Shown here: positions 18,973-22,364 of the stretch, in pieces | Layout of the letters: each line of letters begins with the position of its first letter | Numbering within the stretch: the first letter of the stretch is position 1 | NCBI RefSeq assembly: GCF_900110505.1 | Contig: NZ_FODZ01000006.1 | Location: 62,001-126,000, forward strand | Source: Luteibacter sp. UNC138MFCol5.1 | Lineage (GTDB): Bacteria; Pseudomonadota; Gammaproteobacteria; Xanthomonadales; Rhodanobacteraceae | DNA length: 64,000 nt | Direction of reading: 5' to 3' | The notes under the pieces: model-generated | What the model was told of the DNA's origin: nothing | Databases searched by the model: none | What the model saw: only the letters and a program-made list of their open reading frames with translations | Made by a program: the position numbers and the translations under genes

Positions 18973-20337
18973 ATGTCGTTCCGTTTCACTTCACTGCTCG
19001 CCTGTGCCTTCGCCTGCACCGTCGCCGCACCGTTCGCTCTCGCCGCCCAGCCGCAGAAGCCACCCGTCGTCCACGTGGACCCGGAAGCCGCGAAGCTGCC
19101 GCCCGAGCGCGTCAAGGAAACCGTCGAGAACTACAAGCGCTGGCTCGACGCCGCGGAAGCCCGCGACGCCGCGCCGGCGATCGTCACCGCGGTCATCGTC
19201 GACGACAAGGTCGTCTACGAGCGTGCCATCGGCTACGCGAACGCGAAGACGAAGGAACCGGCGACGCCCGAGACCGTCTTCCGTCTCGCGTCGCTGTCGA
19301 AGGCCTTCGCCACCGGCGTCACCGCCGTCCTCGTCCGTGCCGGGTTCCTGAGCTGGGACACGAAGCTCGTCGACACCCTGCCCTACTTCAAGCTCAAGGA
19401 CATGCAGTCCGCGCAGCAGGCCACGGTGCGCGACATCCTCGGTCAGCGCCTCGGCCTGCCGCGCAATACCTACGACGCGATGCTCGAGGCCGACGCGCCG
19501 TACGAGGAACTCGTGCGCAAGCTCGACGAGGTCGACCTCTCCTGCAAGGTGGGCGCCTGCTACGGCTACCAGAACGTCGCCTTCAGCATGATCGGCGACG
19601 TCATCTATGCGCAGACCGGCGACTACTTCTTCCGCCAGGTGGAGCGCCGCATCTTCGCGCCGCTCGGCATGACAACCGCGAGCTACGGCCGCGACGCGCT
19701 GGAGGCGAGCAAGAGCTGGGCGCGCCCCCATCGCGGCGGTCCGCACAACTGGATTCCGTACGAGCCGAACGACAGCTACTACCGCGTGGCCCCCGCCGCC
19801 GGTGTCAACGCGAGCCTCCGCGACATGGAGCAGTGGCTGATGGCGCAGATGGGCGGTCGCCCCGACGTGCTGCCGACCCCGCTGCTCGACGTGCTGCACG
19901 CGCCCGAAGTGTCCACGCCGTCCGAAGAGCGCTCCCAGCCCTGGCGCCGCGCGCGCGTGACCGACGCGCACTACGCGCTCGGCTGGCGCGTCTTCAAGTA
20001 CGCCAACGAAGACCTCGTCTACCACGCGGGTGCCGTGTCGGGTTACCGCACGATGATCGGCTTCTTCCCGAAGTACCACGCGGGCGTCGTCACGATGTGG
20101 AACGGCGCGGGCCCGGTCCCCGCCGGACTCATGCCGATGGTCTTCGACAGCCTGCTCGGCCTCCCGCACATGGACTGGGCTGGCGTCGACGGCCCCATCC
20201 GCGCGGCCGCGCCCGTCGCGAAGGCCGCGCCGGCGAAGACCGCGCCGAAGGCGAAGGCCACGGCGAAGTCGAAGACGAAAGCCACGCCGAAGAAAACGGC
20301 ATCCAAGACGGCAACCAAGAAGAAGAAGCCGGAGTAG
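18973..20337 (+). CDS. Secreted serine hydrolase (class C beta-lactamase fold) with lysine-rich tail
   Basis: Periplasmic or exported protein with a signal peptide (residues 1-25, ending ALAA). The catalytic motifs of the beta-lactamase/DD-peptidase-like family are present: SLSK at 107-110 (SxxK), YQN at 199-201 and HAGAVSG near residue 355. It may be an esterase, D-aminopeptidase or peptidoglycan-related enzyme; substrate not predictable. The last ~45 residues are an Ala/Lys/Thr/Pro-rich tail ending KKKKPE, very like a histone-H1 tail and unusual for this family. A strong hairpin terminator follows. Confidence 0.88.
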   Translation: MSFRFTSLLACAFACTVAAPFALAAQPQKPPVVHVDPEAAKLPPERVKETVENYKRWLDAAEARDAAPAIVTAVIVDDKVVYERAIGYANAKTKEPATPETVFRLASLSKAFATGVTAVLVRAGFLSWDTKLVDTLPYFKLKDMQSAQQATVRDILGQRLGLPRNTYDAMLEADAPYEELVRKLDEVDLSCKVGACYGYQNVAFSMIGDVIYAQTGDYFFRQVERRIFAPLGMTTASYGRDALEASKSWARPHRGGPHNWIPYEPNDSYYRVAPAAGVNASLRDMEQWLMAQMGGRPDVLPTPLLDVLHAPEVSTPSEERSQPWRRARVTDAHYALGWRVFKYANEDLVYHAGAVSGYRTMIGFFPKYHAGVVTMWNGAGPVPAGLMPMVFDSLLGLPHMDWAGVDGPIRAAAPVAKAAPAKTAPKAKATAKSKTKATPKKTASKTATKKKKPE

Positions 20338-21422: not shown

Positions 21423-21593
21423 GGCGGTTCGTAACGGACTCCGCGAAGGCGCGCGCCGATGATGGCTTGACGCGGAAGACCCCCCCGGTCCCCGCAGCGC
21501 GATGTGGCGACAAGGTAACCGTAATGGACGCGTGAATCCAGTTGGACGGCCTAGGACGTTTTCCGGTCCGGTGGGCGAACCCCGGAAACGAAC

Positions 21594-21655
21594 GACCCCG
21601 GCCAGGCCGGGGTCAAGTCTTCGAAGTGACTCCCCGCGCTGGGCACCGCGGGGAG
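21594..21655. terminator. Two tandem GC-rich hairpins downstream of the MetJ-H1 gene
   Basis: GACCCCGGCCAGGCCGGGGTC (21594-21614) is a near-perfect hairpin. CTCCCCGCG (21630-21638) pairs with CGCGGGGAG (21647-21655). Both lie 40-100 bases after the reverse-strand metJ-like stop. Neither has a strong U-run, so termination may be weak or Rho-assisted. Confidence 0.55.
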
Positions 21656-21694: not shown

Positions 21695-22309
21695 TTACTT
21701 CGCCTTGGCGGCCTTCGGGGCCTTCGGTGCCTTGGCGGCCTTGGTCGCGCGAACGACCTTGGCGGCGGCGACCTTCTTCGAAGCGGCCTTGCGCGGCGAA
21801 GCCTTGCGCGCGGTCTTCTTCGCGGTTGCCTTCTTGACGGCCTTCTTCACCGCCTTCTTGGCGGCGACCTTGCGGGCCGGTGCCTTGCGGACGGACTTCT
21901 TCGCAGCAGCCTTCTTGGCCGGCGACTTGCGGGTTGCAGCCTTCTTGGTCGCGACCTTGCGGGTCGAGGCCTTCTTCGCCGGCGACTTGCGGGCGGCGGT
22001 CTTCTTCACGGTCGACTTCTTCGTCGCCTTCTTGGCGGCGGACTTCTTGGCAGTGGCTTTCTTGGCAGTGGCCATAGTTCTTCTCAGCTCCTCATCAGTT
22101 GGCAGTGGTTGCCCAGTAAAAGCGTGGAGGAACGCTTCAACCAGCAGATCGCTGTTCGTCGCGTGCCTCAAATTGTTCACCTGGCGGCGTGTGCGTTCAT
22201 CGGAAAGCAGGCGGAGAACATGCAGCGGAATCGATACCGTGATCTTGCGAACCGAACCAGCTTTCGAACCATGCTCCACATACGGCCTGATGAATTGATC
22301 TCTTTCCAT
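21695..22309 (-). CDS. metJ: MetJ methionine repressor fused to a histone-H1-like tail
   Basis: Residues 1-78 are plainly Met[44 protein letters not shown] and [13 protein letters not shown] match the E. coli ribbon-helix-helix repressor. The DNA-contacting strand (Lys22, Thr24 equivalents of Lys23/Thr25) is kept. After TDEELRRT the MetJ C-terminal helix is missing. It is replaced by a ~126-residue Lys/Ala/Arg-rich tail built of (A/P)AKK-type repeats, as in bacterial H1-like proteins (AlgP, Hc1/Hc2). Start ATG 22309 follows GGGGAA. An internal ATG at 22075 could start a free H1-like protein. Expected to repress methionine genes with S-adenosylmethionine and also coat or bridge DNA; the second role is inferred. 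Confidence 0.9.
22073..22093 (-). promoter_or_regulatory. Possible internal ribosome-binding site and start inside metJ-H1
   Basis: On the minus strand GAGGAG (22088-22093) and AGAAG (22080-22084) precede an in-frame ATG at 22075. The ATG begins [16 protein letters not shown]. This is exactly the junction between the MetJ domain and the H1-like tail. Use of this start would give a 126-residue stand-alone H1-like protein. The GAG GAG codons also encode Glu-Glu, so the signal may be coincidental. Confidence 0.4.
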
Positions 22310-22320
22310 TTCCGGTTCCC

Positions 22321-22364
22321 CGTCAATTGACGCAAAAGCTATTCCTGAACATTTCCGCTGTCAA
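22321..22364 (-). promoter_or_regulatory. Sigma70-type promoter of metJ-H1 with adjacent 12-bp palindrome
   Basis: On the minus strand a perfect -35 TTGACA (22359-22364) is followed, after a 17-base spacer, by TAGCTT (22336-22341) as -10. Immediately downstream, near the predicted transcription start, is the perfect palindrome CGTCAATTGACG (22321-22332). It is not a canonical met box (AGACGTCT), but its position is ideal for an operator. Confidence 0.7.

Follow-up and report, generated by a model that had tools for sequence, protein, structure and literature searches.

A MetJ repressor with a histone H1-like tail

On the minus strand of the window, which is the whole stretch of 64,000 nucleotides analysed here, one open reading frame begins as the methionine repressor MetJ and ends as a lysine-rich tail resembling histone H1. 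Is this fusion real, and does the gene make one protein or two? The fusion is real and is not a frameshift artefact. Moreover, the junction points to a gene that probably yields two proteins, namely the MetJ-H1 fusion and a free H1-like protein started at M79 (22075). The DNA itself shows that core and tail are fused, that the fusion is conserved, that met boxes stand near methionine genes and that the junction is constrained as a start would be (Table 1).

Table 1. Features of the metJ locus, in coordinates of the window
Feature	Position	Strand	Remarks
Whole gene, MetJ-H1 fusion, 204 aa	21695..22309	-	ATG at 22309, stop ending at 21695
MetJ core, residues 1-78	22076..22309	-	Pfam, NCBIfam, alignment to 1cma
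Lysine-rich H1-like tail, residues 79-204; also candidate nested ORF, 126 aa, from internal ATG	21695..22075	-	
Codons 63-76, silent positions largely frozen in the family	22082..22123	-	115 unique sequences
AGGAG, Shine-Dalgarno-like, 12 nt before internal ATG	22088..22092	-	
Internal in-frame ATG (M79), candidate start of free tail	22073..22075	-	113/115 unique rows
Candidate metJ promoter, TTGACA-17-TAGCTT	22336..22364	-	Read by eye; also in other upstream sequences shown
Terminator-like hairpin 3' of the gene	21593..21615	-	Weak: 3 such sites in the scan vs 2.7 expected

The N-terminal part was matched over residues 5-88 by the Pfam family MetJ (PF01340; E 2e-37, 127.5 bits against a cut-off of 25), and the NCBIfam MetJ equivalog (NF003622), with 133.9 bits, exceeded its cut-off of 110. 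Over the same residues the protein aligned to the solved structure of the E. coli Met repressor (1cma), with identical stretches of 25 and 13 residues. KITVSIPL and a 17-residue segment are identical to E. coli MetJ in this alignment, and we take them to be the DNA-contact strand and the helix A/B residues. The proposal, made from the sequence before any search, that residues 1-78 are a MetJ core close to that of E. coli was thus borne out by both profiles and by the alignment, as was its in-frame union with an H1-like tail, the junction of which is kept in relatives. The region of E. coli MetJ beyond about residue 78 is absent from the fusion, and the tail stands in its place. For the whole 204-aa protein, AlphaFold gave a mean pLDDT of 51.3 and a pTM of 0.18, values too low to be informative.

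The tail itself scored 21.1 bits with Pfam HC2 (PF07382; cut-off 40) and 29.6 bits with NCBIfam hist_H1_lk_Burk (NF038053; cut-off 80). Both scores lie below their cut-offs, so 'H1-like' describes a composition and not membership of a family. The resemblance to Hc2 and to the Burkholderia-type H1-like proteins thus lies in tail composition and these weak profile matches; the present tail differs from them in falling short of both curated cut-offs and in standing in frame behind MetJ. The 106 complete tails of the family are 35-309 aa long (median 99.5), with a K+R fraction of 0.29-0.49, and Asp and Glu are absent from 103 of them. By analogy to AlgP, such tails should bind DNA or other polyanions. 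A lysine-rich repeat tail also closes another ORF of the window (18973-20337, plus strand), which reads like a serine hydrolase of the beta-lactamase type.

The fusion is kept across the family

MetJ was found in 145 of 398 genomes drawn from the order Xanthomonadales, distributed by hand count over families f1 (125), f9 (13), f12 (6) and f8 (1). We took f1 to be the Rhodanobacteraceae, as inferred from named relatives, which place the window in or near Luteibacter. The Rhodanobacteraceae are mostly soil bacteria. In 124 of the 125 f1 matches the protein lies in a single stop-to-stop frame of 137-399 aa (hand count), and in the remaining one (G384) the frame is cut by a contig end. One of the 124, from the metagenome-assembled Luteibacter G016, has a TGA within the MetJ core, with an intact tail. 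This TGA (locus L035; the genome also holds L071) may stem from faulty assembly. In the readable f1 rows core and tail are never separated by a stop, and MetJ should therefore be made only with its tail, barring proteolysis. Among the genomes without a match that were listed (233 others are not among them), other families come first; one f1 genome, G007, which is 80% complete, gave no MetJ match.

MetJ is unfused in the sister families. Two f12 proteins of 79 aa have no tail, and the 13 f9 proteins occupy open frames of 95-106 aa, apart from one of 143 aa that results from a longer upstream frame. In a class-wide draw of 369 genomes there were 5 MetJ matches, and the three outside f1 are frames of 112-118 aa with E. 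coli-like C-termini. The sequence-only reading had the MetJ C-terminus replaced by a tail of AAKK/PAKK type. The replacement stands, but a short C-terminus is not special to the fusion, as the two 79-aa proteins show. Sharing of the fusion within the Xanthomonadales had also been suggested; it holds for the Rhodanobacteraceae and not for the order at large, where MetJ itself occurs in only those 145 of 398 genomes.

Position 22075, where a frameshift or indel had been feared, opens an internal ATG that is conserved. The same in-frame junction occurs in many genera, single-contig genomes among them, and when metJ genes were aligned it was seen to be kept across the family. An indel at 22075 is excluded because this junction recurs in relatives; neither is the fusion missing from close relatives, since a fused frame runs through f1. 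A sequencing frameshift or an assembly join of two genes, in favour of which nothing was found for the window, can hence be set aside as vanishingly improbable.

Silent positions are frozen before the internal ATG

The codons preceding the junction were compared in 144 loci. The junction motif was recognised in 131, and the 13 missed loci, all from f9, were read separately; 129 of the 131 were family rows, giving 115 unique sequences. Over codons 63-76 the choice of codon is largely fixed (unique rows): TTT in 110/115, ACT in 115/115, GGG in 114/115, CAA in 113/115, CCA in 109/110, CTG in 111/115, CCA in 114/115, GAG in 114/114, GAG in 115/115 and AGA in 107/107. Within the block A63 (GCT 101, others 14), T71 (ACT 105, ACC 10), D72 (GAT 87, GAC 28) and L75 (CTG 85, CTA 26, others 4) are less strict. 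Many of the frozen codons are rare ones, while most of MetJ varies at silent sites; in 12 genes of the window, ACT makes up 0.9% of Thr codons and AGA 0.7% of Arg codons.

In 53 columns at least 90% of rows keep the same residue; their mean normalised synonymous entropy was 0.153 for the 13 inside the block (residues 64-76) and 0.691 for the 40 outside it. This difference was reached in none of 100,000 permutations, for a block that was picked after inspecting the data. Relatedness alone does not explain the block, because most silent sites vary in an equally conserved 11-residue stretch of MetJ. At the same silent sites, 18 unfused MetJs are variable, some of them from genomes of much lower GC.

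Immediately after the block comes the internal ATG. Two unique rows lack it, namely L030, which has GTG instead, and L059, which meets a contig end. In the 113 others AGGAG always precedes the ATG, by 12 nt in 104 and by 9 nt in 9, and Ala always follows the Met. Ahead of the Met stands Thr, Asp or Ile, or else the row is one codon shorter; such variation suggests that the Met is kept for its own sake. Over the 15 codons that precede the ATG, GC3 is 0.21-0.48, rising to 0.45-0.67 in codons 1-9 after the ATG and to 0.78-0.86 thereafter; at 12 gene starts of the window the dip is narrower, at codons 4-6 (0.50). The marks of an in-frame start, a conserved start codon, a Shine-Dalgarno-like site and selection on silent sites, are thus all present in the sequence. 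Moreover, in L030 the block codons are free and the fusion is kept. That the loss of the ATG goes with free codons is the strongest sign that the block exists for the ATG, though it comes from one lineage only.

Some features speak against a nested start. The optimal distance from Shine-Dalgarno site to ATG is about 5-9 nt, and 12 nt is further than usual. The frozen block reaches some 30 nt upstream of AGGAG, beyond what a ribosome site needs. Codon bias also occurs at several places elsewhere in MetJ, among them some Asn, His and Ser codons of the equally conserved 11-residue stretch (e.g., AGC 112/115, CAC 108/115).

Other roles for the junction were considered. A programmed frameshift was rejected, as a nearby stop in another frame is lost where codon 71 is ACC (10/115; frames read by eye). 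A consensus scan listed no sigma-70-like promoter in the block. A 24-base junction pattern (at most 2 mismatches), present in 69 of 76 family genomes, was found in 0 of the 223 other genomes drawn (families counted by hand). At that sensitivity, the idea that other families carry the H1-like gene by itself behind this leader was discarded. The tail was searched for in 8 genomes and matched in 3. In G028, a genome without the internal ATG, the candidate for a replacement H1 gene matched no more than weakly and lies within a 1069-aa frame that contains a TGA, and it was rejected. A further weak tail match, in a 215-aa frame of family f2 (G057:C84:13808-14080, L237), is possibly a lone H1-like gene.

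Met boxes and a probable MetJ regulon

The tandem met-box pattern (at most 2 mismatches) gave 142 strand-hits in the genome of the window, against 42 for the reversed control. Without mismatch, it was present in 34 of 41 family genomes, with 307 strand-hits against 3 for the control (summed by hand). Of the four places without mismatch in the genome of the window, one is near leuA, two lie upstream of a Wza-like exopolysaccharide gene and of a TonB receptor, respectively, and the fourth, C11:17158, adjoins no assignable gene. With one mismatch, four tandem boxes lie between a cysteine-synthase-like gene and metX, and another site lies upstream of a Wzc-like gene (metX, metK and this leuA were named by NCBIfam). 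Among relatives, metK has a site upstream of it, a further site falls between the same pair of metX and cysteine-synthase-like genes, and four are upstream of leuA-like genes, as judged by their N-termini. On this evidence, the MetJ core probably still represses and recognises classical operators, although many of the 29 met-box loci of relatives show no clear methionine gene.

The recurrence of met boxes before leuA-like genes (L194, a 2-isopropylmalate synthase by NCBIfam; L212, L215, L217, L224) is unexpected in a methionine regulon. The Wza-like (L195, C7:397466) and Wzc-like (L203, C7:380984) sites of the genome of the window are about 16.5 kb apart, and exopolysaccharide may be under MetJ control.

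Outside Luteibacter, the 220 nt upstream of metJ contain a tandem box (at most 2 mismatches) in 78 of 92 unique loci, at -165 to -187, compared to 0.2 per set in shuffled controls. These boxes stand about 100 nt upstream of the TTGACA-17-TAGCTT promoter, and metJ is likely autoregulated in these bacteria. In loci of the Tahibacter type (L055-L057, L098 and the like) they are found at about -183 rather than -172. In Luteibacter, only 1 of 22 upstream regions has such a box and the window has none, which counts against the explanation preferred below, as do the many met-box sites without an adjacent methionine gene.

One gene and probably two proteins

A ribosome starting at 22309 would make a MetJ repressor, in every case with its polycationic H1-like tail attached. 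Its core would bind tandem met boxes, and SAM, as homology to E. coli MetJ predicts, would be the corepressor; the tail would contribute nonspecific contacts with DNA or bridge it. A ribosome starting instead at the internal ATG would make only the tail, a small H1-like protein binding DNA or polyanions, and the initiation region of this second product would overlap the last part of the MetJ coding sequence. We infer, rather than observe, that the internal start is used, that the tail binds DNA and that the repressor responds to SAM, and the same holds for any effect on the nucleoid. L030 suggests that the fusion is kept for itself, and the frozen block suggests that outside L030 the tail is also translated alone. 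More tentatively, and with rather more doubt than confidence, a single mRNA might give both an operator-bound, SAM-responsive MetJ-H1 and a free H1-like nucleoid protein, the dose of which would follow SAM where metJ has met boxes.

We hold it unlikely that the tail works solely within MetJ, by raising affinity or bridging operators, with the frozen block being an RNA element, a small-RNA target or a protein-binding DNA site. This reading accords with the readable rows having no stop between core and tail, with the retention of the fusion in L030 despite the lost ATG, and with a block longer than a ribosome site. However, the Met-Ala pair, the AGGAG and a GC3 dip that continues past the ATG fit a start; Rfam gave three matches, each far below its gathering score; and the small hairpin in the block is predicted in 7 of the 8 sequences that were folded, L003 being the exception. 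It is very improbable, moreover, that the internal-start tail is the product that matters while the MetJ half decays. The core TGA of G016 and the scarcity of clear met boxes upstream of metJ in Luteibacter would suit such a decay, but the core is conserved and without a stop in 124 of 125 family matches (the exception being G016), and met boxes are present in 34 of 41 family genomes. Two proteins from one gene, one of them the fusion, is therefore the reading that we prefer.

Each part of this arrangement is of a known kind: MetJ itself, tails of the H1-like sort, which AlgP and PhaF also have, and internal starts in frame. Their combination appears to be new. As in E. coli MetJ, the DNA-contact strand and helices are the same by sequence and met-box operators lie near metX and metK; unlike it, the fusion has an H1-like tail after about residue 78, and its gene contains a second candidate start. 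In Pseudomonas, AlgP and PhaF, as described in PMC9239181, likewise join a folded domain to a lysine-rich repeat tail with the composition of H1-like proteins, and for AlgP the same source reports that fragments of the tail bind DNA and that the protein has a role in spacing polyphosphate granules. Here, in contrast, the N-terminal domain is a sequence-specific repressor, and the repeats are AKK/PAKK-like instead of KPAA. N-terminal proteoform pairs, as presented in PMC11005335, likewise come from one gene with two in-frame starts; the short form here would lose the whole repressor domain, and the evidence for it is evolutionary. No description of a MetJ-H1 fusion was found among the titles and abstract openings of the papers listed, subscription papers and preprints aside.

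A textbook repressor thus carries a chromatin-like tail throughout the sampled family genomes, together with the evolutionary signature of a nested second protein. Here a metabolite sensor shares its gene with a protein of the DNA-packing type, a case that is simple and open to testing. It also places a MetJ regulon in an order for which the survey PMC4239095 gives MetJ in none of 4 Xanthomonadales genomes and proposes SamR. If true, a SAM-tracking dose of free tail would be a built-in link between methionine status and chromosome packing in the 78 of 92 non-Luteibacter loci that have met boxes.

Sequences flanking the gene

The gene order is gcvT-gcvH-metJ in the loci shown that extend far enough. 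The candidate metJ promoter is not listed by the consensus promoter scan. Between its -10 element and the metJ start lies a 12-base perfect palindrome, CGTCAATTGACG (about 22320-22335, minus strand), which also occurs in the two other Luteibacter upstream sequences shown.
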